Positions 3,079 through 64,000 of a DNA stretch of 64,000 nt are shown in pieces; position 1 is the first letter of the stretch, and each line of letters begins with the position of its first letter. Made by a program: the position numbers and the translations under genes. The notes beneath the pieces are model-generated. The model had not been told where the DNA came from and searched no databases. It worked only from the letters and a program-made list of their open reading frames with translations. The DNA comes from Phytophthora sp. 'mugwort' (taxonomy: Eukaryota > Oomycota > Peronosporomycetes > Peronosporales > Peronosporaceae), in the NCBI GenBank assembly GCA_033558025.1, contig JAUCEF010000018.1, forward strand, positions 496,001 through 560,000, read 5' to 3'.

Positions 3079-3087
3079 CACAGCACC

Positions 3088-3091
3088 AAAA
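3088..3091 (-). terminator. First T4 run downstream of tRNA copy 1 (representative)
   Basis: TTTT on the minus strand within GGTTTTGG, about 333 nt past the mature tRNA 3' end. It is the first run of four T in the spacer and recurs in each unit. It could act as a distant fail-safe stop; this is inferred from position only. Confidence 0.35.
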
Positions 3092-3415
3092 CCGACGCCA
3101 CTGTGGATGCCCAAACATGCCTCTCTGGTGTCCTCTTTTCCGCTGCAGCCACAACGCTGCTGGTCGGCCGCCGTGCTGAACAGACTCTCGAGGCTGTGGA
3201 TGTTGGCTTCCGGTGTGCCTGTCGCGGTTAACCCAACACTGACCGCCTCAATCTGGGGGTTGGTCGGATCGTTGTTTTTGATGCAAGGCGGCGCTCGATG
3301 CGCAACGTTGTCAGCTGGAGACGGCAGCTGGCCGCGGCAACAAGCTAGTCAAGCTCCTGCTGGCTATTAACGAGCCATAACCATCTTTATCTACAGGAGA
3401 GCAGAGATTGCGGAG

Positions 3416-3423
3416 CAAAGACG
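3416..3423 (-). terminator. Weak T3 trailer of tRNA copy 1 (no canonical T4)
   Basis: The minus-strand trailer reads CGTCTTTG directly after the discriminator base. Only three T residues occur, below the usual minimum of four for Pol III termination. Every copy has the same T3; copy 38 has one base change beside it (GTGTTTG). Whether it terminates is uncertain. Confidence 0.4.
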
Positions 3424-3434
3424 GGGCCTCACCG

Positions 3435-3445
3435 GGAATCGAACC
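3435..3445 (-). promoter_or_regulatory. B box of tRNA copy 1 (representative of all copies)
   Basis: GGTTCGATTCC at tRNA nt 51-61 is a perfect eukaryotic B box (GGTTCGANTCC). It is also the T-loop region and is present unchanged in all 113 copies. Confidence 0.93.
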
Positions 3446-3476
3446 CGGGACCTCTCGCACCCGAAGCGAGAATCAT

Positions 3477-3488
3477 ACCACTAGACCA
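3477..3488 (-). promoter_or_regulatory. A box of tRNA copy 1 (representative of all copies)
   Basis: TGGTCTAGTGGT at tRNA nt 8-19 matches the eukaryotic Pol III A-box pattern TRGYNNARNGG. It lies at the same place in every copy and no variant was seen in it. Confidence 0.9.
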
Positions 3489-3495
3489 CGAGGCC

Positions 3496-3963
3496 ACACC
3501 AAACAGATCAAACCGCATGCACAATCAAAACGCCTGCTGGAAAGCCAACGCACGGTATACACCTAGCGCAGCTCCGATGGCACGCACTTCTCTCTACGAT
3601 ACCGCCTCATACGCTTCGTTATGGCACAGCACCAAAACCGACGCCACTGTGGATGCCCAAACATGCCTATCTGGTGTCCTCTTTTCCGCTGCAGCCACAA
3701 CGCTGCTGGTCGGCCGCCGTGCTGAACAGACTCTCGAGGCTGTGGATGTTGGCTTCCGGTGTGCCTGTCGCGGTTAACCCAACACTGACCGCCTCAATCT
3801 GGGGGTTGGTCGGATCATTGTTTTTGATGCAAGGCGGCGCTCGATGCGCAACGTTGTCAGCTGGAGACGGCAGCTGGCCGCGGCAACAAGCTAGTCAAGC
3901 TCCTGCTGGCTATTAACGAGCCATAACCATCTACAGGAGAGCAGAGATTGCGGAGCAAAGACG
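3496..3963. other. Inter-tRNA spacer (representative, unit 1)
   Basis: 468 bp between tRNA copies 1 and 2. Seen on the + strand: a T-poor 5' flank of the minus-strand tRNA, a GTATAC palindrome (3555-3560), a GC-rich middle with CAGCTG twice near its right end, TTTTT at about 3821, and the 3' flank. Open frames on the + strand (66-87 codons) are not supported as genes. I recognise no 5S rRNA, snRNA, second tRNA or transposon sequence in it. Confidence 0.75.
3527..3530 (-). promoter_or_regulatory. T4 run 32-35 nt upstream of tRNA copy 1 (representative)
   Basis: TTTT within GCGTTTTGAT in the 5' flank, present in each unit. It could stop read-through from the preceding tRNA gene or be part of the T-rich upstream region; neither is shown. 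A TATA-like GTATACC lies further out, about 60-65 nt upstream of the tRNA, too far for a usual Pol III TATA element. Confidence 0.3.
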
Positions 3964-4035
3964 GGGCCTCACCGGGAATCGAACCCGGGACCTCTCGCAC
4001 CCGAAGCGAGAATCATACCACTAGACCACGAGGCC
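3964..4035 (-). tRNA. tRNA-Pro(CGG), copy 2
   Basis: Standard sequence; 540 bp after copy 1; site 1 AG. Its unit carries the ctctctgg allele. Confidence 0.97.
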
Positions 4036-4509
4036 ACACCAAACAGATCAAACCGCATGCATAATCAAAACGCCTGCTAGAAAGCCAACGCACGGTATAC
4101 ACCTAGCGCAGCTCCCATGGCACGCACTTCTCTCTACGATACCGCCTCATACGCTTCGTTATGGCACAGCACCAAAACCGACGCCACTGTGGATGCCCAA
4201 ACATGCCTCTCTGGTGTCCTCTTTTCCGCTGCAGCCACAACGCTGCTGGTCGGCCGCCGTGCTGAACAGACTCTCGAGGCTGTGGATGTTGGCTTCCGGT
4301 GTGCCTGTCGCGGTTAACCCAACACTGACCGCCTCAATCTGGGGGTTGGTCGGATCGTTGTTTTTGATGCAAGGCGGCGCTCGATGCGCAACGTTGTCAG
4401 CTGGAGACGGCAGCTGGCCGCGGCAACAAGCTAGTCAAGCTCCTGCTGGCTATTAACGAGCCATAACCATCTTTATCTACAGGAGAGCAGAGATTGCGGA
4501 GCAAAGACG

Positions 4510-4581
4510 GGGCCTCACCGGGAATCGAACCCGGGACCTCTCGCACCCGAAGCGAGAATCATACCACTAGACCACGAGGCC
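4510..4581 (-). tRNA. tRNA-Pro(CGG), copy 3
   Basis: Standard; 546 bp after copy 2 (TTTATC in 3' flank); site 1 GG. Confidence 0.97.
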
Positions 4582-5049
4582 ACACCAAACAGATCAAACC
4601 GCATGCACAATCAAAACGCCTGCTGGAAAGCCAACGCACGGTATACACCTAGCGCAGCTCCGATGGCACGCACTTCTCTCTACGATACCGCCTCATACGC
4701 TTCGTTATGGCACAGCACCAAAACCGACGCCACTGTGGATGCCCAAACATGCCTATCTGGTGTCCTCTTTTCCGCTGCAGCCACAACGCTGCTGGTCGGC
4801 CGCCGTGCTGAACAGACTCTCGAGGCTGTGGATGTTGGCTTCCGGTGTGCCTGTCGCGGTTAACCCAACACTGACCGCCTCAATCTGGGGGTTGGTCGGA
4901 TCATTGTTTTTGATGCAAGGCGGCGCTCGATGCGCAACGTTGTCAGCTGGAGACGGCAGCTGGCCGCGGCAACAAGCTAGTCAAGCTCCTGCTGGCTATT
5001 AACGAGCCATAACCATCTACAGGAGAGCAGAGATTGCGGAGCAAAGACG

Positions 5050-5121
5050 GGGCCTCACCGGGAATCGAACCCGGGACCTCTCGCACCCGAAGCGAGAATC
5101 ATACCACTAGACCACGAGGCC
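5050..5121 (-). tRNA. tRNA-Pro(CGG), copy 4
   Basis: Standard; 540 bp interval; site 1 AG. Confidence 0.97.
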
Positions 5122-5589
5122 ACACCAAACAGATCAAACCGCATGCATAATCAAAACGCCTGCTAGAAAGCCAACGCACGGTATACACCTAGCGCAGCTC
5201 CCATGGCACGCACTTCTCTCTACGATACCGCCTCATACGCTTCGTTATGGCACAGCACCAAAACCGACGCCACTGTGGATGCCCAAACATGCCTATCTGG
5301 TGTCCTCTTTTCCGCTGCAGCCACAACGCTGCTGGTCGGCCGCCGTGCTGAACAGACTCTCGAGGCTGTGGATGTTGGCTTCCGGTGTGCCTGTCGCGGT
5401 TAACCCAACACTGACCGCCTCAATCTGGGGGTTGGTCGGATCATTGTTTTTGATGCAAGGCGGCGCTCGATGCGCAACGTTGTCAGCTGGAGACGGCAGC
5501 TGGCCGCGGCAACAAGCTAGTCAAGCTCCTGCTGGCTATTAACGAGCCATAACCATCTACAGGAGAGCAGAGATTGCGGAGCAAAGACG

Positions 5590-5661
5590 GGGCCTCACCG
5601 GGAATCGAACCCGGGACCTCTCGCACCCGAAGCGAGAATCATACCACTAGACCACGAGGCC
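5590..5661 (-). tRNA. tRNA-Pro(CGG), copy 5
   Basis: Standard; 540 bp interval; site 1 GG. Confidence 0.97.
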
Positions 5662-6135
5662 ACACCAAACAGATCAAACCGCATGCACAATCAAAACGCC
5701 TGCTGGAAAGCCAACGCACGGTATACACCTAGCGCAGCTCCCATGGCACGCACTTCTCTCTACGATACCGCCTCATACGCTTCGTTATGGCACAGCACCA
5801 AAACCGACGCCACTGTGGATGCCCAAACATGCCTATCTGGTGTCCTCTTTTCCGCTGCAGCCACAACGCTGCTGGTCGGCCGCCGTGCTGAACAGACTCT
5901 CGAGGCTGTGGATGTTGGCTTCCGGTGTGCCTGTCGCGGTTAACCCAACACTGACCGCCTCAATCTGGGGGTTGGTCGGATCGTTGTTTTTGATGCAAGG
6001 CGGCGCTCGATGCGCAACGTTGTCAGCTGGAGACGGCAGCTGGCCGCGGCAACAAGCTAGTCAAGCTCCTGCTGGCTATTAACGAGCCATAACCATCTTT
6101 ATCTACAGGAGAGCAGAGATTGCGGAGCAAAGACG

Positions 6136-6207
6136 GGGCCTCACCGGGAATCGAACCCGGGACCTCTCGCACCCGAAGCGAGAATCATACCACTAGACCA
6201 CGAGGCC
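6136..6207 (-). tRNA. tRNA-Pro(CGG), copy 6
   Basis: Standard; 546 bp interval (TTTATC in 3' flank); site 1 GA. Confidence 0.97.
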
Positions 6208-6675
6208 ACACCAAACAGATCAAACCGCATGCACAATCAAAACGCCTGCTGAAAAGCCAACGCACGGTATACACCTAGCGCAGCTCCCATGGCACGCACT
6301 TCTCTCTACGATACCGCCTCATACGCTTCGTTATGGCACAGCACCAAAACCGACGCCACTGTGGATGCCCAAACATGCCTATCTGGTGTCCTCTTTTCCG
6401 CTGCAGCCACAACGCTGCTGGTCGGCCGCCGTGCTGAACAGACTCTCGAGGCTGTGGATGTTGGCTTCCGGTGTGCCTGTCGCGGTTAACCCAACACTGA
6501 CCGCCTCAATCTGGGGGTTGGTCGGATCGTTGTTTTTGATGCAAGGCGGCGCTCGATGCGCAACGTTGTCAGCTGGAGACGGCAGCTGGCCGCGGCAACA
6601 AGCTAGTCAAGCTCCTGCTGGCTATTAACGAGCCATAACCATCTACAGGAGAGCAGAGATTGCGGAGCAAAGACG

Positions 6676-6747
6676 GGGCCTCACCGGGAATCGAACCCGG
6701 GACCTCTCGCACCCGAAGCGAGAATCATACCACTAGACCACGAGGCC
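6676..6747 (-). tRNA. tRNA-Pro(CGG), copy 7
   Basis: Standard; 540 bp interval; site 1 GG. Confidence 0.97.
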
Positions 6748-7215
6748 ACACCAAACAGATCAAACCGCATGCACAATCAAAACGCCTGCTGGAAAGCCAA
6801 CGCACGGTATACACCTAGCGCAGCTCCCATGGCACGCACTTCTCTCTACGATACCGCCTCATACGCTTCGTTATGGCACAGCACCAAAACCGACGCCACT
6901 GTGGATGCCCAAACATGCCTATCTGGTGTCCTCTTTTCCGCTGCAGCCACAACGCTGCTGGTCGGCCGCCGTGCTGAACAGACTCTCGAGGCTGTGGATG
7001 TTGGCTTCCGGTGTGCCTGTCGCGGTTAACCCAACACTGACCGCCTCAATCTGGGGGTTGGTCGGATCGTTGTTTTTGATGCAAGGCGGCGCTCGATGCG
7101 CAACGTTGTCAGCTGGAGACGGCAGCTGGCCGCGGCAACAAGCTAGTCAAGCTCCTGCTGGCTATTAACGAGCCATAACCATCTACAGGAGAGCAGAGAT
7201 TGCGGAGCAAAGACG

Positions 7216-7287
7216 GGGCCTCACCGGGAATCGAACCCGGGACCTCTCGCACCCGAAGCGAGAATCATACCACTAGACCACGAGGCC
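7216..7287 (-). tRNA. tRNA-Pro(CGG), copy 8
   Basis: Standard; 540 bp interval; site 1 GG. Confidence 0.97.
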
Positions 7288-7755
7288 ACACCAAACAGAT
7301 CAAACCGCATGCACAATCAAAACGCCTGCTGGAAAGCCAACGCACGGTATACACCTAGCGCAGCTCCCATGGCACGCACTTCTCTCTACGATACCGCCTC
7401 ATACGCTTCGTTATGGCACAGCACCAAAACCGACGCCACTGTGGATGCCCAAACATGCCTATCTGGTGTCCTCTTTTCCGCTGCAGCCACAACGCTGCTG
7501 GTCGGCCGCCGTGCTGAACAGACTCTCGAGGCTGTGGATGTTGGCTTCCGGTGTGCCTGTCGCGGTTAACCCAACACTGACCGCCTCAATCTGGGGGTTG
7601 GTCGGATCGTTGTTTTTGATGCAAGGCGGCGCTCGATGCGCAACGTTGTCAGCTGGAGACGGCAGCTGGCCGCGGCAACAAGCTAGTCAAGCTCCTGCTG
7701 GCTATTAACGAGCCATAACCATCTACAGGAGAGCAGAGATTGCGGAGCAAAGACG

Positions 7756-7827
7756 GGGCCTCACCGGGAATCGAACCCGGGACCTCTCGCACCCGAAGCG
7801 AGAATCATACCACTAGACCACGAGGCC
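7756..7827 (-). tRNA. tRNA-Pro(CGG), copy 9
   Basis: Standard; 540 bp interval; site 1 GG. Shares the rare ctccgatgg spacer allele with units 1 and 3. Confidence 0.97.
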
Positions 7828-8295
7828 ACACCAAACAGATCAAACCGCATGCACAATCAAAACGCCTGCTGGAAAGCCAACGCACGGTATACACCTAGCG
7901 CAGCTCCGATGGCACGCACTTCTCTCTACGATACCGCCTCATACGCTTCGTTATGGCACAGCACCAAAACCGACGCCACTGTGGATGCCCAAACATGCCT
8001 ATCTGGTGTCCTCTTTTCCGCTGCAGCCACAACGCTGCTGGTCGGCCGCCGTGCTGAACAGACTCTCGAGGCTGTGGATGTTGGCTTCCGGTGTGCCTGT
8101 CGCGGTTAACCCAACACTGACCGCCTCAATCTGGGGGTTGGTCGGATCATTGTTTTTGATGCAAGGCGGCGCTCGATGCGCAACGTTGTCAGCTGGAGAC
8201 GGCAGCTGGCCGCGGCAACAAGCTAGTCAAGCTCCTGCTGGCTATTAACGAGCCATAACCATCTACAGGAGAGCAGAGATTGCGGAGCAAAGACG

Positions 8296-8367
8296 GGGCC
8301 TCACCGGGAATCGAACCCGGGACCTCTCGCACCCGAAGCGAGAATCATACCACTAGACCACGAGGCC
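8296..8367 (-). tRNA. tRNA-Pro(CGG), copy 10
   Basis: Standard; 540 bp interval; site 1 AG. Confidence 0.97.
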
Positions 8368-8835
8368 ACACCAAACAGATCAAACCGCATGCATAATCAA
8401 AACGCCTGCTAGAAAGCCAACGCACGGTATACACCTAGCGCAGCTCCCATGGCACGCACTTCTCTCTACGATACCGCCTCATACGCTTCGTTATGGCACA
8501 GCACCAAAACCGACGCCACTGTGGATGCCCAAACATGCCTATCTGGTGTCCTCTTTTCCGCTGCAGCCACAACGCTGCTGGTCGGCCGCCGTGCTGAACA
8601 GACTCTCGAGGCTGTGGATGTTGGCTTCCGGTGTGCCTGTCGCGGTTAACCCAACACTGACCGCCTCAATCTGGGGGTTGGTCGGATCATTGTTTTTGAT
8701 GCAAGGCGGCGCTCGATGCGCAACGTTGTCAGCTGGAGACGGCAGCTGGCCGCGGCAACAAGCTAGTCAAGCTCCTGCTGGCTATTAACGAGCCATAACC
8801 ATCTACAGGAGAGCAGAGATTGCGGAGCAAAGACG

Positions 8836-8907
8836 GGGCCTCACCGGGAATCGAACCCGGGACCTCTCGCACCCGAAGCGAGAATCATACCACTAGACCA
8901 CGAGGCC
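8836..8907 (-). tRNA. tRNA-Pro(CGG), copy 11
   Basis: Standard; 540 bp interval; site 1 GG; ctctctgg allele in its unit. Confidence 0.97.
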
Positions 8908-9381
8908 ACACCAAACAGATCAAACCGCATGCACAATCAAAACGCCTGCTGGAAAGCCAACGCACGGTATACACCTAGCGCAGCTCCCATGGCACGCACT
9001 TCTCTCTACGATACCGCCTCATACGCTTCGTTATGGCACAGCACCAAAACCGACGCCACTGTGGATGCCCAAACATGCCTCTCTGGTGTCCTCTTTTCCG
9101 CTGCAGCCACAACGCTGCTGGTCGGCCGCCGTGCTGAACAGACTCTCGAGGCTGTGGATGTTGGCTTCCGGTGTGCCTGTCGCGGTTAACCCAACACTGA
9201 CCGCCTCAATCTGGGGGTTGGTCGGATCGTTGTTTTTGATGCAAGGCGGCGCTCGATGCGCAACGTTGTCAGCTGGAGACGGCAGCTGGCCGCGGCAACA
9301 AGCTAGTCAAGCTCCTGCTGGCTATTAACGAGCCATAACCATCTTTATCTACAGGAGAGCAGAGATTGCGGAGCAAAGACG

Positions 9382-9453
9382 GGGCCTCACCGGGAATCGA
9401 ACCCGGGACCTCTCGCACCCGAAGCGAGAATCATACCACTAGACCACGAGGCC
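9382..9453 (-). tRNA. tRNA-Pro(CGG), copy 12
   Basis: Standard; 546 bp interval (TTTATC); site 1 GG; ctctctgg allele in its unit. Confidence 0.97.
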
Positions 9454-9927
9454 ACACCAAACAGATCAAACCGCATGCACAATCAAAACGCCTGCTGGAA
9501 AGCCAACGCACGGTATACACCTAGCGCAGCTCCCATGGCACGCACTTCTCTCTACGATACCGCCTCATACGCTTCGTTATGGCACAGCACCAAAACCGAC
9601 GCCACTGTGGATGCCCAAACATGCCTCTCTGGTGTCCTCTTTTCCGCTGCAGCCACAACGCTGCTGGTCGGCCGCCGTGCTGAACAGACTCTCGAGGCTG
9701 TGGATGTTGGCTTCCGGTGTGCCTGTCGCGGTTAACCCAACACTGACCGCCTCAATCTGGGGGTTGGTCGGATCGTTGTTTTTGATGCAAGGCGGCGCTC
9801 GATGCGCAACGTTGTCAGCTGGAGACGGCAGCTGGCCGCGGCAACAAGCTAGTCAAGCTCCTGCTGGCTATTAACGAGCCATAACCATCTTTATCTACAG
9901 GAGAGCAGAGATTGCGGAGCAAAGACG

Positions 9928-9999
9928 GGGCCTCACCGGGAATCGAACCCGGGACCTCTCGCACCCGAAGCGAGAATCATACCACTAGACCACGAGGCC
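9928..9999 (-). tRNA. tRNA-Pro(CGG), copy 13
   Basis: Standard; 546 bp interval, the last TTTATC unit seen; site 1 GG. Confidence 0.97.
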
Positions 10000-10467
10000 A
10001 CACCAAACAGATCAAACCGCATGCACAATCAAAACGCCTGCTGGAAAGCCAACGCACGGTATACACCTAGCGCAGCTCCCATGGCACGCACTTCTCTCTA
10101 CGATACCGCCTCATACGCTTCGTTATGGCACAGCACCAAAACCGACGCCACTGTGGATGCCCAAACATGCCTATCTGGTGTCCTCTTTTCCGCTGCAGCC
10201 ACAACGCTGCTGGTCGGCCGCCGTGCTGAACAGACTCTCGAGGCTGTGGATGTTGGCTTCCGGTGTGCCTGTCGCGGTTAACCCAACACTGACCGCCTCA
10301 ATCTGGGGGTTGGTCGGATCATTGTTTTTGATGCAAGGCGGCGCTCGATGCGCAACGTTGTCAGCTGGAGACGGCAGCTGGCCGCGGCAACAAGCTAGTC
10401 AAGCTCCTGCTGGCTATTAACGAGCCATAACCATCTACAGGAGAGCAGAGATTGCGGAGCAAAGACG

Positions 10468-10539
10468 GGGCCTCACCGGGAATCGAACCCGGGACCTCTC
10501 GCACCCGAAGCGAGAATCATACCACTAGACCACGAGGCC
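10468..10539 (-). tRNA. tRNA-Pro(CGG), copy 14
   Basis: Standard; 540 bp interval; site 1 GG. Its unit has the first 11-bp deletion. Confidence 0.97.
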
Positions 10540-10996
10540 ACACCAAACAGATCAAACCGCATGCACAATCAAAACGCCTGCTGGAAAGCCAACGCACGGT
10601 ATACACCTAGCGCAGCTCCCATGGCACGCACTTCTCTCTACGATACCGCCTCATACGCTTCGTTATGGCACAGCACCAAAACCGACGCCACTGTGGATGC
10701 CCAAACATGCCTATCTGGTGTCCTCTTTTCCGCTGCAGCCACAACGCTGCTGGTCGGCCGCCGTGCTGAACAGACTCTCGAGGCTGTGGATGTTGGCTTC
10801 CGGTGTGCCTGTCGCGGTTAACCCAACACTGACCGCCTCAATCTGGGGGTTGGTCGGATCGTTGTTTTTGATGCAAGGCGGCGCTCGATGCGCAACGTTG
10901 TCAGCTGGAGACGGCAGCTGGCCGCGGCAACAAGCTAGTTGGGTATTAACGAGCCATAACCATCTACAGGAGAGCAGAGATTGCGGAGCAAAGACG

Positions 10997-11068
10997 GGGC
11001 CTCACCGGGAATCGAACCCGGGACCTCTCGCACCCGAAGCGAGAATCATACCACTAGACCACGAGGCC
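10997..11068 (-). tRNA. tRNA-Pro(CGG), copy 15
   Basis: Standard; 529 bp interval; site 1 GG. A 217-codon + strand open frame crosses this tRNA and is not a gene. Confidence 0.97.
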
Positions 11069-11536
11069 ACACCAAACAGATCAAACCGCATGCACAATCA
11101 AAACGCCTGCTGGAAAGCCAACGCACGGTATACACCTAGCGCAGCTCCCATGGCACGCACTTCTCTCTACGATACCGCCTCATACGCTTCGTTATGGCAC
11201 AGCACCAAAACCGACGCCACTGTGGATGCCCAAACATGCCTATCTGGTGTCCTCTTTTCCGCTGCAGCCACAACGCTGCTGGTCGGCCGCCGTGCTGAAC
11301 AGACTCTCGAGGCTGTGGATGTTGGCTTCCGGTGTGCCTGTCGCGGTTAACCCAACACTGACCGCCTCAATCTGGGGGTTGGTCGGATCGTTGTTTTTGA
11401 TGCAAGGCGGCGCTCGATGCGCAACGTTGTCAGCTGGAGACGGCAGCTGGCCGCGGCAACAAGCTAGTCAAGCTCCTGCTGGCTATTAACGAGCCATAAC
11501 CATCTACAGGAGAGCAGAGATTGCGGAGCAAAGACG

Positions 11537-11608
11537 GGGCCTCACCGGGAATCGAACCCGGGACCTCTCGCACCCGAAGCGAGAATCATACCACTAGACC
11601 ACGAGGCC
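11537..11608 (-). tRNA. tRNA-Pro(CGG), copy 16
   Basis: Standard; 540 bp interval; site 1 GG. Confidence 0.97.
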
Positions 11609-12065
11609 ACACCAAACAGATCAAACCGCATGCACAATCAAAACGCCTGCTGGAAAGCCAACGCACGGTATACACCTAGCGCAGCTCCCATGGCACGCAC
11701 TTCTCTCTACGATACCGCCTCATACGCTTCGTTATGGCACAGCACCAAAACCGACGCCACTGTGGATGCCCAAACATGCCTATCTGGTGTCCTCTTTTCC
11801 GCTGCAGCCACAACGCTGCTGGTCGGCCGCCGTGCTGAACAGACTCTCGAGGCTGTGGATGTTGGCTTCCGGTGTGCCTGTCGCGGTTAACCCAACACTG
11901 ACCGCCTCAATCTGGGGGTTGGTCGGATCGTTGTTTTTGATGCAAGGCGGCGCTCGATGCGCAACGTTGTCAGCTGGAGACGGCAGCTGGCCGCGGCAAC
12001 AAGCTAGTTGGGTATTAACGAGCCATAACCATCTACAGGAGAGCAGAGATTGCGGAGCAAAGACG

Positions 12066-12137
12066 GGGCCTCACCGGGAATCGAACCCGGGACCTCTCGC
12101 ACCCGAAGCGAGAATCATACCACTAGACCACGAGGCC
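12066..12137 (-). tRNA. tRNA-Pro(CGG), copy 17
   Basis: Standard; 529 bp interval; site 1 GA. Confidence 0.97.
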
Positions 12138-12605
12138 ACACCAAACAGATCAAACCGCATGCATAATCAAAACGCCTGCTGAAAAGCCAACGCACGGTAT
12201 ACACCTAGCGCAGCTCCCATGGCACGCACTTCTCTCTACGATACCGCCTCATACGCTTCGTTATGGCACAGCACCAAAACCGACGCCACTGTGGATGCCC
12301 AAACATGCCTATCTGGTGTCCTCTTTTCCGCTGCAGCCACAACGCTGCTGGTCGGCCGCCGTGCTGAACAGACTCTCGAGGCTGTGGATGTTGGCTTCCG
12401 GTGTGCCTGTCGCGGTTAACCCAACACTGACCGCCTCAATCTGGGGGTTGGTCGGATCATTGTTTTTGATGCAAGGCGGCGCTCGATGCGCAACGTTGTC
12501 AGCTGGAGACGGCAGCTGGCCGCGGCAACAAGCTAGTCAAGCTCCTGCTGGCTATTAACGAGCCATAACCATCTACAGGAGAGCAGAGATTGCGGAGCAA
12601 AGACG

Positions 12606-12677
12606 GGGCCTCACCGGGAATCGAACCCGGGACCTCTCGCACCCGAAGCGAGAATCATACCACTAGACCACGAGGCA
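12606..12677 (-). tRNA. tRNA-Pro(CGG), copy 18, G1-to-U variant
   Basis: The first base is U instead of G (+ strand A at 12677), so the terminal acceptor pair with C71 is lost. The rest is standard. 540 bp interval; site 1 GA. RNase P processing or aminoacylation may be reduced. Confidence 0.9.
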
Positions 12678-13145
12678 ACACCAAACAGATCAAACCGCAT
12701 GCATAATCAAAACGCCTGCTGAAAAGCCAACGCACGGTATACACCTAGCGCAGCTCCCATGGCACGCACTTCTCTCTACGATACCGCCTCATACGCTTCG
12801 TTATGGCACAGCACCAAAACCGACGCCACTGTGGATGCCCAAACATGCCTATCTGGTGTCCTCTTTTCCGCTGCAGCCACAACGCTGCTGGTCGGCCGCC
12901 GTGCTGAACAGACTCTCGAGGCTGTGGATGTTGGCTTCCGGTGTGCCTGTCGCGGTTAACCCAACACTGACCGCCTCAATCTGGGGGTTGGTCGGATCAT
13001 TGTTTTTGATGCAAGGCGGCGCTCGATGCGCAACGTTGTCAGCTGGAGACGGCAGCTGGCCGCGGCAACAAGCTAGTCAAGCTCCTGCTGGCTATTAACG
13101 AGCCATAACCATCTACAGGAGAGCAGAGATTGCGGAGCAAAGACG

Positions 13146-13217
13146 GGGCCTCACCGGGAATCGAACCCGGGACCTCTCGCACCCGAAGCGAGAATCATAC
13201 CACTAGACCACGAGGCC
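13146..13217 (-). tRNA. tRNA-Pro(CGG), copy 19
   Basis: Standard; 540 bp interval; site 1 AG. Confidence 0.97.
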
Positions 13218-13685: not shown

Positions 13686-13757
13686 GGGCCTCACCGGGAA
13701 TCGAACCCGGGACCTCTCGCACCCGAAGCGAGAATCATACCACTAGACCACGAGGCC
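13686..13757 (-). tRNA. tRNA-Pro(CGG), copy 20
   Basis: Standard; 540 bp interval; site 1 AG. Confidence 0.97.
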
Positions 13758-32073: not shown

Positions 32074-32541
32074 ACACCAAACAGATCAAACCGCATGCAT
32101 AATCAAAACGCCTGCTAGAAAGCCAACGCACGGTATACACCTAGCGCAGCTCCCATGGCACGCACTTCTCTCTACGATACCGCCTCATACGCTTCGTTAT
32201 GGCACAGCACCAAAACCGACGCCACTGTGGATGCCCAAACATGCCTATCTGGTGTCCTCTTTTCCGCTGCAGCCACAACGCTGCTGGTCGGCCGCCGTGC
32301 TGAACAGACTCTCGAGGCTGTGGATGTTGGCTTCCGGTGTGCCTGTCGCGGTTAACCCAACACTGACCGCCTCAATCTGGGGGTTGGTCGGATCATTGTT
32401 TTTGATGCAAGGCGGCGCTCGATGCGCAACGTTGTCAGCTGGAGACGGCAGCTGGCCGCGGCAACAAGCTAGTCAAGCTCCTGCTGGCTATTAACGAGCC
32501 ATAACCATCTACAGGAGAGCAGAGATTGCGGAGCAAAGACG

Positions 32542-32610
32542 GGGCCTCACCGGGAATCGAACCCGGGACTCGCACCCGAAGCGAGAATCATACCACTAGA
32601 CCACGAGGCC
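32542..32610 (-). pseudogene. tRNA-Pro(CGG), copy 55, variable region deleted (probable pseudo-tRNA)
   Basis: Only 69 nt. A 3-bp deletion near + 32568-32571 removes AGG from the variable region, leaving 2 nt (TC) instead of 5 between the anticodon stem and the T stem. All stems, both internal promoter boxes and the anticodon remain, so it may be transcribed, but folding of the L shape should be impaired. 537 bp interval; site 1 AG. Confidence 0.85.
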
Positions 32611-53556: not shown

Positions 53557-53628
53557 GGGCCTCACCGGGAATCGAACCCGGGACCTCTCGCACCCGAAGC
53601 GAGAATCATACCACTAGACCACGAGGCC
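53557..53628 (-). tRNA. tRNA-Pro(CGG), copy 94
   Basis: Standard; 540 bp interval; site 1 GG. Confidence 0.97.
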
Positions 53629-54096
53629 ACACCAAACAGATCAAACCGCATGCATAATCAAAACGCCTGCTGGAAAGCCAACGCACGGTATACACCTAGC
53701 GCAGCTCCCATGGCACGCACTTCTCTCTACGATACCGCCTCATACGCTTCGTTATGGCACAGCACCAAAACCGACGCCACTGTGGATGCCCAAACATGCC
53801 TATCTGGTGTCCTCTTTTCCGCTGCAGCCACAACGCTGCTGGTCGGCCGCCGTGCTGAACAGACTCTCGAGGCTGTGGATGTTGGCTTCCGGTGTGCCTG
53901 TCGCGGTTAACCCAACACTGACCGCCTCAATCTGGGGGTTGGTCGGATCGTTGTTTTTGATGCAAGGCGGCGCTCGATGCGCAACGTTGTCAGCTGGAGA
54001 CGGCAGCTGGCCGCGGCAACAAGCTAGTCAAGCTCCTGCTGGCTATTAACGAGCCATAACCATCTACAGGAGAGCAGAGATTGCGGAGCAAAGACG

Positions 54097-54168
54097 GGGC
54101 CTCACCGGGAATCGAACCCGGGACCTCTCGCACCCGAAGCGAGAATCATACCACTAGACCACGAGGCC
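54097..54168 (-). tRNA. tRNA-Pro(CGG), copy 95
   Basis: Standard; 540 bp interval; site 1 AG. Confidence 0.97.
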
Positions 54169-54636
54169 ACACCAAACAGATCAAACCGCATGCATAATCA
54201 AAACGCCTGCTAGAAAGCCAACGCACGGTATACACCTAGCGCAGCTCCCATGGCACGCACTTCTCTCTACGATACCGCCTCATACGCTTCGTTATGGCAC
54301 AGCACCAAAACCGACGCCACTGTGGATGCCCAAACATGCCTATCTGGTGTCCTCTTTTCCGCTGCAGCCACAACGCTGCTGGTCGGCCGCCGTGCTGAAC
54401 AGACTCTCGAGGCTGTGGATGTTGGCTTCCGGTGTGCCTGTCGCGGTTAACCCAACACTGACCGCCTCAATCTGGGGGTTGGTCGGATCGTTGTTTTTGA
54501 TGCAAGGCGGCGCTCGATGCGCAACGTTGTCAGCTGGAGACGGCAGCTGGCCGCGGCAACAAGCTAGTCAAGCTCCTGCTGGCTATTAACGAGCCATAAC
54601 CATCTACAGGAGAGCAGAGATTGCGGAGCAAAGACG

Positions 54637-54708
54637 GGGCCTCACCGGGAATCGAACCCGGGACCTCTCGCACCCGAAGCGAGAATCATACCACTAGACC
54701 ACGAGGCC
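54637..54708 (-). tRNA. tRNA-Pro(CGG), copy 96
   Basis: Standard; 540 bp interval; site 1 GG. Confidence 0.97.
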
Positions 54709-55176
54709 ACACCAAACAGATCAAACCGCATGCACAATCAAAACGCCTGCTGGAAAGCCAACGCACGGTATACACCTAGCGCAGCTCCCATGGCACGCAC
54801 TTCTCTCTACGATACCGCCTCATACGCTTCGTTATGGCACAGCACCAAAACCGACGCCACTGTGGATGCCCAAACATGCCTATCTGGTGTCCTCTTTTCC
54901 GCTGCAGCCACAACGCTGCTGGTCGGCCGCCGTGCTGAACAGACTCTCGAGGCTGTGGATGTTGGCTTCCGGTGTGCCTGTCGCGGTTAACCCAACACTG
55001 ACCGCCTCAATCTGGGGGTTGGTCGGATCGTTGTTTTTGATGCAAGGCGGCGCTCGATGCGCAACGTTGTCAGCTGGAGACGGCAGCTGGCCGCGGCAAC
55101 AAGCTAGTCAAGCTCCTGCTGGCTATTAACGAGCCATAACCATCTACAGGAGAGCAGAGATTGCGGAGCAAAGACG

Positions 55177-55248
55177 GGGCCTCACCGGGAATCGAACCCG
55201 GGACCTCTCGCACCCGAAGCGAGAATCATACCACTAGACCACGAGGCC
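55177..55248 (-). tRNA. tRNA-Pro(CGG), copy 97
   Basis: Standard; 540 bp interval; site 1 GG. Confidence 0.97.
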
Positions 55249-55716
55249 ACACCAAACAGATCAAACCGCATGCACAATCAAAACGCCTGCTGGAAAGCCA
55301 ACGCACGGTATACACCTAGCGCAGCTCCCATGGCACGCACTTCTCTCTACGATACCGCCTCATACGCTTCGTTATGGCACAGCACCAAAACCGACGCCAC
55401 TGTGGATGCCCAAACATGCCTATCTGGTGTCCTCTTTTCCGCTGCAGCCACAACGCTGCTGGTCGGCCGCCGTGCTGAACAGACTCTCGAGGCTGTGGAT
55501 GTTGGCTTCCGGTGTGCCTGTCGCGGTTAACCCAACACTGACCGCCTCAATCTGGGGGTTGGTCGGATCATTGTTTTTGATGCAAGGCGGCGCTCGATGC
55601 GCAACGTTGTCAGCTGGAGACGGCAGCTGGCCGCGGCAACAAGCTAGTCAAGCTCCTGCTGGCTATTAACGAGCCATAACCATCTACGGGAGAGCAGAGA
55701 TTGCGGAGCAAAGACG

Positions 55717-55788
55717 GGGCCTCACCGGGAATCGAACCCGGGACCTCTCGCACCCGAAGCGAGAATCATACCACTAGACCACGAGGCC
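55717..55788 (-). tRNA. tRNA-Pro(CGG), copy 98
   Basis: Standard; 540 bp interval; site 1 GG; unique ctacggg in its 3' flank (55688). Confidence 0.97.
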
Positions 55789-56256
55789 ACACCAAACAGA
55801 TCAAACCGCATGCACAATCAAAACGCCTGCTGGAAAGCCAACGCACGGTATACACCTAGCGCAGCTCCCATGGCACGCACTTCTCTCTACGATACCGCCT
55901 CATACGCTTCGTTATGGCACAGCACCAAAACCGACGCCACTGTGGATGCCCAAACATGCCTATCTGGTGTCCTCTTTTCCGCTGCAGCCACAACGCTGCT
56001 GGTCGGCCGCCGTGCTGAACAGACTCTCGAGGCTGTGGATGTTGGCTTCCGGTGTGCCTGTCGCGGTTAACCCAACACTGACCGCCTCAATCTGGGGGTT
56101 GGTCGGATCATTGTTTTTGATGCAAGGCGGCGCTCGATGCGCAACGTTGTCAGCTGGAGACGGCAGCTGGCCGCGGCAACAAGCTAGTCAAGCTCCTGCT
56201 GGCTATTAACGAGCCATAACCATCTACAGGAGAGCAGAGATTGCGGAGCAAAGACG

Positions 56257-56328
56257 GGGCCTCACCGGGAATCGAACCCGGGACCTCTCGCACCCGAAGC
56301 GAGAATCATACCACTAGACCACGAGGCC
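56257..56328 (-). tRNA. tRNA-Pro(CGG), copy 99
   Basis: Standard; 540 bp interval; site 1 GA; upstream GTATAC changed to GTAGAC (56391). Confidence 0.97.
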
Positions 56329-56796
56329 ACACCAAACAGATCAAACCGCATGCATAATCAAAACGCCTGCTGAAAAGCCAACGCACGGTAGACACCTAGC
56401 GCAGCTCCCATGGCACGCACTTCTCTCTACGATACCGCCTCATACGCTTCGTTATGGCACAGCACCAAAACCGACGCCACTGTGGATGCCCAAACATGCC
56501 TATCTGGTGTCCTCTTTTCCGCTGCAGCCACAACGCTGCTGGTCGGCCGCCGTGCTGAACAGACTCTCGAGGCTGTGGATGTTGGCTTCCGGTGTGCCTG
56601 TCGCGGTTAACCCAACACTGACCGCCTCAATCTGGGGGTTGGTCGGATCGTTGTTTTTGATGCAAGGCGGCGCTCGATGCGCAACGTTGTCAGCTGGAGA
56701 CGGCAGCTGGCCGCGGCAACAAGCTAGTCAAGCTCCTGCTGGCTATTAACGAGCCATAACCATCTACAGGAGAGCAGAGATTGCGGAGCAAAGACG

Positions 56797-56868
56797 GGGC
56801 CTCACCGGGAATCGAACCCGGGACCTCTCGCACCCGAAGCGAGAATCATACCACTAGACCACGAGGCC
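56797..56868 (-). tRNA. tRNA-Pro(CGG), copy 100
   Basis: Standard; 540 bp after copy 99. A 9-bp duplication in its 5' flank makes the next interval 549 bp; site 1 GA. Confidence 0.97.
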
Positions 56869-56903
56869 ACACCAAACAGATCAAACCGCATGCATAATCA
56901 AAA

Positions 56904-56921
56904 CGCCTGCTGCGCCTGCTG
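56904..56921 (+). repeat. 9-bp direct duplication in the spacer
   Basis: CGCCTGCTG occurs twice in a row, upstream of tRNA copy 100. All other units have it once. It explains the single 549-bp interval and looks like a replication-slippage event. Confidence 0.93.
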
Positions 56922-57345
56922 AAAAGCCAACGCACGGTATACACCTAGCGCAGCTCCCATGGCACGCACTTCTCTCTACGATACCGCCTCATACGCTTCG
57001 TTATGGCACAGCACCAAAACCGACGCCACTGTGGATGCCCAAACATGCCTATCTGGTGTCCTCTTTTCCGCTGCAGCCACAACGCTGCTGGTCGGCCGCC
57101 GTGCTGAACAGACTCTCGAGGCTGTGGATGTTGGCTTCCGGTGTGCCTGTCGCGGTTAACCCAACACTGACCGCCTCAATCTGGGGGTTGGTCGGATCAT
57201 TGTTTTTGATGCAAGGCGGCGCTCGATGCGCAACGTTGTCAGCTGGAGACGGCAGCTGGACGCGGCAACAAGCTAGTCAAGCTCCTGCTGGCTATTAACG
57301 AGCCATAACCATCTACAGGAGAGCAGAGATTGCGGAGCAAAGACG

Positions 57346-57417
57346 GGGCCTCACCGGGAATCGAACCCGGGACCTCTCGCACCCGAAGCGAGAATCATAC
57401 CACTAGACCACGAGGCC
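57346..57417 (-). tRNA. tRNA-Pro(CGG), copy 101
   Basis: Standard; 549 bp interval; site 1 GA; GTAGAC upstream (57480). Confidence 0.97.
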
Positions 57418-57885
57418 ACACCAAACAGATCAAACCGCATGCATAATCAAAACGCCTGCTGAAAAGCCAACGCACGGTAGACACCTAGCGCAGCTCCCAT
57501 GGCACGCACTTCTCTCTACGATACCGCCTCATACGCTTCGTTATGGCACAGCACCAAAACCGACGCCACTGTGGATGCCCAAACATGCCTATCTGGTGTC
57601 CTCTTTTCCGCTGCAGCCACAACGCTGCTGGTCGGCCGCCGTGCTGAACAGACTCTCGAGGCTGTGGATGTTGGCTTCCGGTGTGCCTGTCGCGGTTAAC
57701 CCAACACTGACCGCCTCAATCTGGGGGTTGGTCGGATCGTTGTTTTTGATGCAAGGCGGCGCTCGATGCGCAACGTTGTCAGCTGGAGACGGCAGCTGGC
57801 CGCGGCAACAAGCTAGTCAAGCTCCTGCTGGCTATTAACGAGCCATAACCATCTACAGGAGAGCAGAGATTGCGGAGCAAAGACG

Positions 57886-57957
57886 GGGCCTCACCGGGAA
57901 TCGAACCCGGGACCTCTCGCACCCGAAGCGAGAATCATACCACTAGACCACGAGGCC
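57886..57957 (-). tRNA. tRNA-Pro(CGG), copy 102
   Basis: Standard; 540 bp interval; site 1 GG; GTAGAC upstream (58020). Confidence 0.97.
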
Positions 57958-58425
57958 ACACCAAACAGATCAAACCGCATGCATAATCAAAACGCCTGCT
58001 GGAAAGCCAACGCACGGTAGACACCTAGCGCAGCTCCCATGGCACGCACTTCTCTCTACGATACCGCCTCATACGCTTCGTTATGGCACAGCACCAAAAC
58101 CGACGCCACTGTGGATGCCCAAACATGCCTATCTGGTGTCCTCTTTTCCGCTGCAGCCACAACGCTGCTGGTCGGCCGCCGTGCTGAACAGACTCTCGAG
58201 GCTGTGGATGTTGGCTTCCGGTGTGCCTGTCGCGGTTAACCCAACACTGACCGCCTCAATCTGGGGGTTGGTCGGATCGTTGTTTTTGATGCAAGGCGGC
58301 GCTCGATGCGCAACGTTGTCAGCTGGAGACGGCAGCTGGCCGCGGCAACAAGCTAGTCAAGCTCCTGCTGGCTATTAACGAGCCATAACCATCTACAGGA
58401 GAGCAGAGATTGCGGAGCAAAGACG

Positions 58426-58497
58426 GGGCCTCACCGGGAATCGAACCCGGGACCTCTCGCACCCGAAGCGAGAATCATACCACTAGACCACGAGGCC
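58426..58497 (-). tRNA. tRNA-Pro(CGG), copy 103
   Basis: Standard; 540 bp interval; site 1 GG. Confidence 0.97.
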
Positions 58498-58965
58498 ACA
58501 CCAAACAGATCAAACCGCATGCACAATCAAAACGCCTGCTGGAAAGCCAACGCACGGTATACACCTAGCGCAGCTCCCATGGCACGCACTTCTCTCTACG
58601 ATACCGCCTCATACGCTTCGTTATGGCACAGCACCAAAACCGACGCCACTGTGGATGCCCAAACATGCCTATCTGGTGTCCTCTTTTCCGCTGCAGCCAC
58701 AACGCTGCTGGTCGGCCGCCGTGCTGAACAGACTCTCGAGGCTGTGGATGTTGGCTTCCGGTGTGCCTGTCGCGGTTAACCCAACACTGACCGCCTCAAT
58801 CTGGGGGTTGGTCGGATCATTGTTTTTGATGCAAGGCGGCGCTCGATGCGCAACGTTGTCAGCTGGAGACGGCAGCTGGCCGCGGCAACAAGCTAGTCAA
58901 GCTCCTGCTGGCTATTAACGAGCCATAACCATCTACAGGAGAGCAGAGATTGCGGAGCAAAGACG

Positions 58966-59037
58966 GGGCCTCACCGGGAATCGAACCCGGGACCTCTCGC
59001 ACCCGAAGCGAGAATCATACCACTAGACCACGAGGCC
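58966..59037 (-). tRNA. tRNA-Pro(CGG), copy 104
   Basis: Standard; 540 bp interval; site 1 GG on a cataatc background. Confidence 0.97.
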
Positions 59038-59505
59038 ACACCAAACAGATCAAACCGCATGCATAATCAAAACGCCTGCTGGAAAGCCAACGCACGGTAT
59101 ACACCTAGCGCAGCTCCCATGGCACGCACTTCTCTCTACGATACCGCCTCATACGCTTCGTTATGGCACAGCACCAAAACCGACGCCACTGTGGATGCCC
59201 AAACATGCCTATCTGGTGTCCTCTTTTCCGCTGCAGCCACAACGCTGCTGGTCGGCCGCCGTGCTGAACAGACTCTCGAGGCTGTGGATGTTGGCTTCCG
59301 GTGTGCCTGTCGCGGTTAACCCAACACTGACCGCCTCAATCTGGGGGTTGGTCGGATCATTGTTTTTGATGCAAGGCGGCGCTCGATGCGCAACGTTGTC
59401 AGCTGGAGACGGCAGCTGGCCGCGGCAACAAGCTAGTCAAGCTCCTGCTGGCTATTAACGAGCCATAACCATCTACAGGAGAGCAGAGATTGCGGAGCAA
59501 AGACG

Positions 59506-59577
59506 GGGCCTCACCGGGAATCGAACCCGGGACCTCTCGCACCCGAAGCGAGAATCATACCACTAGACCACGAGGCC
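59506..59577 (-). tRNA. tRNA-Pro(CGG), copy 105
   Basis: Standard; 540 bp interval; site 1 AG; site 5 T; unique ccggcgcc near 59723. First unit of the homogeneous right block. Confidence 0.97.
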
Positions 59578-60045
59578 ACACCAAACAGATCAAACCGCAT
59601 GCATAATCAAAACGCCTGCTAGAAAGCCAACGCACGGTATACACCTAGCGCAGCTCCCATGGCACGCACTTCTCTCTACGATACCGCCTCATACGCTTCG
59701 TTATGGCACAGCACCAAAACCGGCGCCACTGTGGATGCCCAAACATGCCTATCTGGTGTCCTCTTTTCCGCTGCAGCCACAACGCTGCTGGTCGGCTGCC
59801 GTGCTGAACAGACTCTCGAGGCTGTGGATGTTGGCTTCCGGTGTGCCTGTCGCGGTTAACCCAACACTGACCGCCTCAATCTGGGGGTTGGTCGGATCGT
59901 TGTTTTTGATGCAAGGCGGCGCTCGATGCGCAACGTTGTCAGCTGGAGACGGCAGCTGGCCGCGGCAACAAGCTAGTCAAGCTCCTGCTGGCTATTAACG
60001 AGCCATAACCATCTACAGGAGAGCAGAGATTGCGGAGCAAAGACG

Positions 60046-60117
60046 GGGCCTCACCGGGAATCGAACCCGGGACCTCTCGCACCCGAAGCGAGAATCATAC
60101 CACTAGACCACGAGGCC
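60046..60117 (-). tRNA. tRNA-Pro(CGG), copy 106
   Basis: Standard; 540 bp interval; site 1 AG; site 5 T. Confidence 0.97.
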
Positions 60118-60585
60118 ACACCAAACAGATCAAACCGCATGCATAATCAAAACGCCTGCTAGAAAGCCAACGCACGGTATACACCTAGCGCAGCTCCCAT
60201 GGCACGCACTTCTCTCTACGATACCGCCTCATACGCTTCGTTATGGCACAGCACCAAAACCGACGCCACTGTGGATGCCCAAACATGCCTATCTGGTGTC
60301 CTCTTTTCCGCTGCAGCCACAACGCTGCTGGTCGGCTGCCGTGCTGAACAGACTCTCGAGGCTGTGGATGTTGGCTTCCGGTGTGCCTGTCGCGGTTAAC
60401 CCAACACTGACCGCCTCAATCTGGGGGTTGGTCGGATCGTTGTTTTTGATGCAAGGCGGCGCTCGATGCGCAACGTTGTCAGCTGGAGACGGCAGCTGGC
60501 CGCGGCAACAAGCTAGTCAAGCTCCTGCTGGCTATTAACGAGCCATAACCATCTACAGGAGAGCAGAGATTGCGGAGCAAAGACG

Positions 60586-60657
60586 GGGCCTCACCGGGAA
60601 TCGAACCCGGGACCTCTCGCACCCGAAGCGAGAATCATACCACTAGACCACGAGGCC
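60586..60657 (-). tRNA. tRNA-Pro(CGG), copy 107
   Basis: Standard; 540 bp interval; site 1 AG; site 5 T. Confidence 0.97.
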
Positions 60658-61125
60658 ACACCAAACAGATCAAACCGCATGCATAATCAAAACGCCTGCT
60701 AGAAAGCCAACGCACGGTATACACCTAGCGCAGCTCCCATGGCACGCACTTCTCTCTACGATACCGCCTCATACGCTTCGTTATGGCACAGCACCAAAAC
60801 CGACGCCACTGTGGATGCCCAAACATGCCTATCTGGTGTCCTCTTTTCCGCTGCAGCCACAACGCTGCTGGTCGGCTGCCGTGCTGAACAGACTCTCGAG
60901 GCTGTGGATGTTGGCTTCCGGTGTGCCTGTCGCGGTTAACCCAACACTGACCGCCTCAATCTGGGGGTTGGTCGGATCGTTGTTTTTGATGCAAGGCGGC
61001 GCTCGATGCGCAACGTTGTCAGCTGGAGACGGCAGCTGGCCGCGGCAACAAGCTAGTCAAGCTCCTGCTGGCTATTAACGAGCCATAACCATCTACAGGA
61101 GAGCAGAGATTGCGGAGCAAAGACG

Positions 61126-61197
61126 GGGCCTCACCGGGAATCGAACCCGGGACCTCTCGCACCCGAAGCGAGAATCATACCACTAGACCACGAGGCC
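61126..61197 (-). tRNA. tRNA-Pro(CGG), copy 108
   Basis: Standard; 540 bp interval; site 1 AG; site 5 T. Confidence 0.97.
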
Positions 61198-61665
61198 ACA
61201 CCAAACAGATCAAACCGCATGCATAATCAAAACGCCTGCTAGAAAGCCAACGCACGGTATACACCTAGCGCAGCTCCCATGGCACGCACTTCTCTCTACG
61301 ATACCGCCTCATACGCTTCGTTATGGCACAGCACCAAAACCGACGCCACTGTGGATGCCCAAACATGCCTATCTGGTGTCCTCTTTTCCGCTGCAGCCAC
61401 AACGCTGCTGGTCGGCTGCCGTGCTGAACAGACTCTCGAGGCTGTGGATGTTGGCTTCCGGTGTGCCTGTCGCGGTTAACCCAACACTGACCGCCTCAAT
61501 CTGGGGGTTGGTCGGATCGTTGTTTTTGATGCAAGGCGGCGCTCGATGCGCAACGTTGTCAGCTGGAGACGGCAGCTGGCCGCGGCAACAAGCTAGTCAA
61601 GCTCCTGCTGGCTATTAACGAGCCATAACCATCTACAGGAGAGCAGAGATTGCGGAGCAAAGACG

Positions 61666-61737
61666 GGGCCTCACCGGGAATCGAACCCGGGACCTCTCGC
61701 ACCCGAAGCGAGAATCATACCACTAGACCACGAGGCC
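61666..61737 (-). tRNA. tRNA-Pro(CGG), copy 109
   Basis: Standard; 540 bp interval; site 1 AG; site 5 T. Confidence 0.97.
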
Positions 61738-62205
61738 ACACCAAACAGATCAAACCGCATGCATAATCAAAACGCCTGCTAGAAAGCCAACGCACGGTAT
61801 ACACCTAGCGCAGCTCCCATGGCACGCACTTCTCTCTACGATACCGCCTCATACGCTTCGTTATGGCACAGCACCAAAACCGACGCCACTGTGGATGCCC
61901 AAACATGCCTATCTGGTGTCCTCTTTTCCGCTGCAGCCACAACGCTGCTGGTCGGCTGCCGTGCTGAACAGACTCTCGAGGCTGTGGATGTTGGCTTCCG
62001 GTGTGCCTGTCGCGGTTAACCCAACACTGACCGCCTCAATCTGGGGGTTGGTCGGATCGTTGTTTTTGATGCAAGGCGGCGCTCGATGCGCAACGTTGTC
62101 AGCTGGAGACGGCAGCTGGCCGCGGCAACAAGCTAGTCAAGCTCCTGCTGGCTATTAACGAGCCATAACCATCTACAGGAGAGCAGAGATTGCGGAGCAA
62201 AGACG

Positions 62206-62277
62206 GGGCCTCACCGGGAATCGAACCCGGGACCTCTCGCACCCGAAGCGAGAATCATACCACTAGACCACGAGGCC
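62206..62277 (-). tRNA. tRNA-Pro(CGG), copy 110
   Basis: Standard; 540 bp interval; site 1 AG; site 5 T. Confidence 0.97.
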
Positions 62278-62745
62278 ACACCAAACAGATCAAACCGCAT
62301 GCATAATCAAAACGCCTGCTAGAAAGCCAACGCACGGTATACACCTAGCGCAGCTCCCATGGCACGCACTTCTCTCTACGATACCGCCTCATACGCTTCG
62401 TTATGGCACAGCACCAAAACCGACGCCACTGTGGATGCCCAAACATGCCTATCTGGTGTCCTCTTTTCCGCTGCAGCCACAACGCTGCTGGTCGGCTGCC
62501 GTGCTGAACAGACTCTCGAGGCTGTGGATGTTGGCTTCCGGTGTGCCTGTCGCGGTTAACCCAACACTGACCGCCTCAATCTGGGGGTTGGTCGGATCGT
62601 TGTTTTTGATGCAAGGCGGCGCTCGATGCGCAACGTTGTCAGCTGGAGACGGCAGCTGGCCGCGGCAACAAGCTAGTCAAGCTCCTGCTGGCTATTAACG
62701 AGCCATAACCATTTACAGGAGAGCAGAGATTGCGGAGCAAAGACG

Positions 62746-62817
62746 GGGCCTCACCGGGAATCGAACCCGGGACCTCTCGCACCCGAAGCGAGAATCATAC
62801 CACTAGACCACGAGGCC
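62746..62817 (-). tRNA. tRNA-Pro(CGG), copy 111
   Basis: Standard; 540 bp interval; site 1 AG; site 5 T; unique catttacagg in its 3' flank (62713). Confidence 0.97.
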
Positions 62818-63285
62818 ACACCAAACAGATCAAACCGCATGCATAATCAAAACGCCTGCTAGAAAGCCAACGCACGGTATACACCTAGCGCAGCTCCCAT
62901 GGCACGCACTTCTCTCTACGATACCGCCTCATACGCTTCGTTATGGCACAGCACCAAAACCGACGCCACTGTGGATGCCCAAACATGCCTATCTGGTGTC
63001 CTCTTTTCCGCTGCAGCCACAACGCTGCTGGTCGGCTGCCGTGCTGAACAGACTCTCGAGGCTGTGGATGTTGGCTTCCGGTGTGCCTGTCGCGGTTAAC
63101 CCAACACTGACCGCCTCAATCTGGGGGTTGGTCGGATCGTTGTTTTTGATGCAAGGCGGCGCTCGATGCGCAACGTTGTCAGCTGGAGACGGCAGCTGGC
63201 CGCGGCAACAAGCTAGTCAAGCTCCTGCTGGCTATTAACGAGCCATAACCATCTACAGGAGAGCAGAGATTGCGGAGCAAAGACG

Positions 63286-63357
63286 GGGCCTCACCGGGAA
63301 TCGAACCCGGGACCTCTCGCACCCGAAGCGAGAATCATACCACTAGACCACGAGGCC
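63286..63357 (-). tRNA. tRNA-Pro(CGG), copy 112
   Basis: Standard; 540 bp interval; site 1 AG; site 5 T. Confidence 0.97.
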
Positions 63358-63825
63358 ACACCAAACAGATCAAACCGCATGCATAATCAAAACGCCTGCT
63401 AGAAAGCCAACGCACGGTATACACCTAGCGCAGCTCCCATGGCACGCACTTCTCTCTACGATACCGCCTCATACGCTTCGTTATGGCACAGCACCAAAAC
63501 CGACGCCACTGTGGATGCCCAAACATGCCTATCTGGTGTCCTCTTTTCCGCTGCAGCCACAACGCTGCTGGTCGGCTGCCGTGCTGAACAGACTCTCGAG
63601 GCTGTGGATGTTGGCTTCCGGTGTGCCTGTCGCGGTTAACCCAACACTGACCGCCTCAATCTGGGGGTTGGTCGGATCGTTGTTTTTGATGCAAGGCGGC
63701 GCTCGATGCGCAACGTTGTCAGCTGGAGACGGCAGCTGGCCGCGGCAACAAGCTAGTCAAGCTCCTGCTGGCTATTAACGAGCCATAACCATCTACAGGA
63801 GAGCAGAGATTGCGGAGCAAAGACG

Positions 63826-63897
63826 GGGCCTCACCGGGAATCGAACCCGGGACCTCTCGCACCCGAAGCGAGAATCATACCACTAGACCACGAGGCC
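63826..63897 (-). tRNA. tRNA-Pro(CGG), copy 113 (last in window)
   Basis: Standard; 540 bp interval; site 1 AG. Its unit is cut by the window end 103 bp after the tRNA, so the array clearly continues. Confidence 0.97.
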
Positions 63898-64000
63898 ACA
63901 CCAAACAGATCAAACCGCATGCATAATCAAAACGCCTGCTAGAAAGCCAACGCACGGTATACACCTAGCGCAGCTCCCATGGCACGCACTTCTCTCTACG

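Follow-up and report, generated by a model that had tools for sequence, protein, structure and literature searches.

Analysis of a 64,000-nucleotide (nt) stretch of the genome of Phytophthora sp. 'mugwort' (contig JAUCEF010000018.1; C18:496001-560000; hereafter, the window means this whole stretch) revealed a tandem array of nearly identical genes for a single proline tRNA, tRNA-Pro(CGG), with one gene in each unit of about 540 bp. The array of Pro(CGG) genes is real and, as detailed below, contains 119 copies. We consider it likely, with a probability of about 0.8, that these are ordinary tRNA genes of RNA polymerase III (Pol III) that jointly constitute the Pro(CGG) bank of the genome, expanded and homogenized by unequal crossing-over and gene conversion. 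Under this interpretation, a single tandem array would keep the near-identical Pro(CGG) genes of the genome; unequal crossing-over together with gene conversion would increase their number and maintain their uniformity; at least some of the copies would be transcribed, yielding tRNA for CCG codons; and the copy number would be loosely held by demand. Such an array presents a natural case of tRNA gene dosage embedded within a structure that can easily change its length.

Within the window, ARAGORN identified 113 tRNA genes, between positions 3423 and 63897 and all on the minus strand, and no tRNA genes outside the array; 112 of these were labeled Pro(CGG) and one Arg(TCG). The original prediction, which was made from the sequence of the window, gave at least 113 tRNA-Pro(CGG) genes; the number of genes holds, except that one of them is damaged and only the other 112 are called Pro(CGG). 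It correctly placed all copies in the same direction (without naming the strand), had the array start at position 3079, as we also find, and regarded it as unfinished at the window edge. We read the next 100 kb of the contig (164 kb in all) and found six further tRNA-Pro(CGG) genes past the right edge, for a total of 119 genes in about 64.5 kb. The last gene is located at L009:3065-3137 (L009 is the flank beyond the window edge), and the array ends with a truncated 120th spacer at around 67,550 in window coordinates (about 3.5 kb outside the window). The units abut head to tail and each includes a single tRNA gene, with 100 of the 118 gene-to-gene spacings equal to 540 bp, the unit length originally predicted, and the rest distributed among 529 bp (10), 546 bp (4), 541 bp (2), 537 bp (1) and 549 bp (1). 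In the four copies examined, the gene scores 55.8 bits each over the full model of the Rfam tRNA family RF00005 (cut-off 29), the tRNA is complete and the canonical fold is present; no Rfam family other than tRNA reached its cut-off in the 2.9 kb searched. An array of the Entamoeba type, with several tRNAs, was considered and rejected given the single tRNA gene per unit. Chance is likewise ruled out as an origin.

We searched the 86.26-Mb assembly (154 contigs) with a 64-nt pattern from the tRNA and a 32-nt pattern from the spacer core, allowing up to three mismatches, the threshold that applies to all statements on copies elsewhere. The tRNA pattern produced 118 matches and the spacer-core pattern 120, in each case on one strand and with 100 matches listed; the window and L009 together contain 118 and 120, respectively. 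Because the genome totals equal the array's own counts, there are no dispersed copies of either the tRNA or the spacer core outside the array at this threshold, which more diverged copies would escape. By the 64-nt pattern, the Pro(CGG) family is confined to one chromosomal place. Given that the search revealed no Pro(CGG) gene elsewhere in the genome, the array likely supplies the Pro(CGG) tRNA and, of the four roles offered in the original prediction, supply of CCG decoding fits best for the same reason. The assignment of tRNAs to codons is assumed to follow the general decoding rules. The exclusivity of both the tRNA and the spacer core further suggests that the array probably constitutes the functional set of Pro(CGG) genes and not a short interspersed nuclear element (SINE). 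This bears on the two published readings of such arrays, as real tRNA gene banks or as SINE-like repeats: an array outside which no copy of the isoacceptor was found favors the former.

In the 118 aligned units, the pairwise identity is 99.5% on average and 98.7% at the lowest, and the 24 scored variant sites and indels define 46 unit types that follow one another in a patchwork order. Neighboring units differ on average at 2.15 scored sites compared with 2.95 (standard deviation 0.10) in 500 shuffles, and the differences between units tend to increase with distance along the array. Such similarity of neighbors would be expected from unequal exchange or conversion acting locally. The tRNA itself is identical over 73 bases in 113 of the 119 copies; five copies have an altered first tRNA base and one has a deletion. 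By nucleotide diversity, the tRNA is less variable than the spacer by a factor of five (0.0011 vs 0.0055), a difference that may be due to chance.

The Pro(CGG) array is one of several in this genome. A search for the proline anticodon arm with up to one mismatch yielded 319 matches (177 forward and 142 reverse; 100 listed) that are accounted for by three arrays, an inverted unit at an array edge and a single AGG gene elsewhere, with 118 matches belonging to Pro(CGG); the unlisted matches were assigned by count and span, and genes with differing anticodon arms would be missed. The Pro(TGG) array on C1 consists of 22 copies (all listed) in units of about 1,123 bp. The Pro(AGG) array on C17 comprises 177 forward copies and one inverted edge unit, with a spacing of mostly 377 bp and in some cases 366 bp; its first part was listed and its far end was read in L056, where the last forward copy lies near position 2,809,759 of the contig. 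At this edge, the inverted unit forms a small palindrome (L056:3734-3923). The solitary Pro(AGG) gene, at C1:3608086, has flanks that by eye resemble the AGG array unit, and is probably related to that array. The resulting gene totals are 119 for CGG, 179 for AGG and 22 for TGG (37, 56 and 7%). Beyond proline, a Leu(AAG) array on C6 includes at least 96 copies from 330683 to 416739, mostly spaced by 735 bp, and the contig with the Pro(CGG) array also carries a smaller array of one isoacceptor, Leu(TAG).

In eight chaperonin genes, proline codon use is roughly matched by the sizes of the proline arrays. The codon set consisted of the matched parts of these genes (nine of 19 chaperonin-family matches), with the exclusion of C6:1111999, which contains internal stops, two short first-exon pieces and seven weaker matches; six open reading frames (ORFs) of the flank, which may be transposons, were also left out. 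Among the 104 proline codons, 33 are CCG, 63 are CCC or CCT and 8 are CCA (32, 61 and 8%).

Several observations weigh against a bank of active genes adjusted to demand. The codon comparison involves three classes and one gene family and, although codon use and tRNA gene numbers are close in the chaperonin genes, the fit is worse in the gene adjacent to the array, which encodes an EML-type protein (10 CCG, 15 CCC or CCT and 9 CCA among 34 proline codons). The proline family with the greatest expansion in P. infestans reads an infrequent codon (PMC9584435). The tRNA shows no significant depletion of variant sites relative to the spacer (2 of 73 vs 22 of 467 columns; Fisher p = 0.76). Finally, the tRNA gene is directly followed on its 3' side by TTT only in all 119 copies, with the first TTTT 316-333 nt downstream. 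Termination by Pol III usually takes four or more T residues. The Leu(TAG) gene in L012 is similar, with an initial TTT and no TTTT before 254 nt. In the Pro(TGG), Pro(AGG) and Leu(AAG) genes and in three Val(TAC) copies, by contrast, TTTT is reached within 15 nt. Either three T residues would be enough here, or some of these genes would yield long precursors. A more far-reaching version of the gene-bank interpretation, which we consider possible but less likely than not, is that nearly all proline decoding depends on three separate tandem banks, one per isoacceptor and sized to codon demand, with the CGG bank perhaps using either a three-T terminator or long read-through precursors. If true, the amount of tRNA supplied would depend on how long these unstable arrays are, and could shift quickly via unequal exchange.

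Some of these observations could also be accommodated if the array were a mostly silent satellite that grew by chance unequal exchange, with most copies heterochromatic and untranscribed. The distance to the nearest TTTT and the lack of a significant variant-site deficit in the tRNA are compatible with such a satellite, and there is a precedent in Arabidopsis, where most tissues show epigenetic silencing of clustered tRNA genes (PMC10701932, PMC12308677). However, most tRNA genes of Arabidopsis are dispersed, yet the searches here, at up to three mismatches, revealed no Pro(CGG) gene outside the array, so that at least some copies in the array should be active. We regard a mostly silent satellite as possible but the less probable explanation; it overlaps with the gene-bank interpretation if a few copies are active.

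It appears rather improbable that the unit is a tRNA-derived repeat amplifying as a transposable element, as proposed for the clusters of Peronospora effusa. In that oomycete, 33-39 clusters, with over 6,000 tRNA genes per isolate, have been reported and classed as SINE-like on the strength of rapid copy-number change and spacer ORFs (PMC11540230), and the Pro(CGG) unit likewise contains stop-free frames of up to 143 amino acids. The 143-amino-acid frame, however, has no relative in a protein search (14 candidates, none with E <= 0.01) and no Pfam match at E <= 1; the tRNA of the unit is complete; and neither the tRNA nor the spacer core is dispersed at up to three mismatches, a limit beyond which older, more diverged copies would be missed. 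According to the discussion in the same paper, the P. effusa elements themselves are each confined to one chromosomal place and are probably immobile. Selfish amplification, another suggestion of the original prediction, is disfavored in the form of a SINE, but the data are consistent with a neutral expansion through unequal exchange. Inflation of the copy number by the assembler seems more improbable still: tRNA counts are known to vary with the assembly method (PMC9584435), but the array is internal to a 4.92-Mb contig, the 164 kb read contain no N, the 46 unit types are interspersed among the 118 units and, in P. infestans, read depth agreed with array sizes (same source).

The original prediction considered an array of one isoacceptor unusual; this does not hold for oomycetes, given the arrays of P. 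infestans (PMC9584435) and at least four others, Pro(TGG), Pro(AGG), Leu(AAG) and Leu(TAG), in the same genome. The Pro(CGG) array is a further example of known oomycete one-isoacceptor arrays and ordinary for the group; it adds one more genome in which tRNA genes are regularly kept in such arrays. For P. infestans, 7,519 tRNA genes have been reported, among them 271 tRNA-Cys(GCA) genes in 513-nt units on one chromosome (PMC9584435). The monomeric arrays of P. infestans and the Pro(CGG) array share a single tandemly repeated tRNA gene, a unit of constant and comparable length (513 nt for tRNA-Cys) and near-identical repeats with few variants that tend to group; about two thirds of the P. infestans families are found on a single chromosome, and Pro(CGG) is likewise in one place. 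Unlike P. infestans, where the proline expansion is mostly UGG, the genome analyzed here has the three proline isoacceptors in separate arrays, with 119 copies of Pro(CGG). The clusters of P. effusa, with 10 to 970 genes each, are also similar in their near-identical tRNA genes, constant unit, single location and occasional inverted segments, but the spacer ORFs of P. effusa are partly annotated as genes (PMC11540230), whereas here the single spacer frame that we searched had no relative, and dispersed copies of the tRNA or the spacer core were not found. Tandem tRNA gene arrays are also present in Entamoeba, but with units of up to five tRNA genes and short tandem repeats between them (PMC2652664), in contrast to the one tRNA gene per unit here. 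Arabidopsis has proline tRNA gene clusters as well; these are described as small and as lying in silenced regions, and they coexist with mostly dispersed tRNA genes (PMC10701932, PMC12308677). The tRNA genes of P. agathidicida have been tabulated by chromosome (PMC9667082). No earlier report of this very array was found in the literature searched, which leaves most subscription journals outside its scope. Useful additions to what has been described are the genome-wide exclusivity of the tRNA and the spacer core, the organization of the proline genes in three arrays and the lack of a nearby TTTT.

Table 1. Coordinates of the tRNA-Pro(CGG) array, its parts and adjacent features (window coordinates unless a flank segment is given)
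Feature	Position	Strand	Basis
Tandem tRNA-Pro(CGG) array, ~540-bp units, one tRNA gene each	3079..64000, continuing about 3.5 kb	minus	ARAGORN, flank reading
First tRNA-Pro(CGG) gene	3423..3495	minus	ARAGORN, Rfam; commonest 73-base sequence (113/119 copies)
Damaged copy, 3-nt deletion, ARAGORN label Arg(TCG)	32541..32610	minus	
First spacer segment, 3' side of first tRNA	3079..3422	minus	32-nt core search
EML-type WD40 protein gene, left neighbor, outside array	1..2013	minus	frame open at window edge
tRNA-Leu(TAG) array, six genes about 2.2 kb apart	L012:6482-8792 and L013:915-7592 (C18, about 33 kb beyond the Pro(CGG) array)	plus	

The protein-coding gene to the left of the array (Table 1) likely has further exons up to about 2.45 kb. 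The closest named relatives of its product are proteins of P. ramorum (76% identity over 75% of the query) and P. cinnamomi (88% over 31%); these Phytophthora relatives, for one gene, agree with the oomycete membership of the genome. Just beyond the far end of the array, a frame matches the DDE_3 transposase family (E 2.8e-9). Also past the array, at the scattered positions L009:6311-6384, L011:488-561 and L014:1124-1197, there are three tRNA-Val(TAC) genes whose flanks are partly alike.

Other tRNA loci were encountered in the searches of the whole assembly. In the RF00005 search, 63 of 9,329 candidates were scored, and 62 of the 63 represent one sequence on many small contigs. In the 8 of 30 loci inspected, this sequence is part of a cluster of tRNA genes (Asn, Ser, Met, Pro(TGG), Met and Gly) that is present on many small contigs, many of these from C19 on, and at C15:19994; this cluster looks mitochondrial, and many mitochondrial copies seem to be included in the assembly. 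Two patterns that combined the A-box and the B-box (117 and 137 matches, 100 listed for each) retrieved the Leu(AAG) array and, for the most part, copies on small contigs along with dispersed Met-like sequences. About ten dispersed Met-like (CAT) tRNA copies with small differences are found on C1, C4, C5, C6, C11, C12 and C18, and could be a tRNA-derived SINE family.

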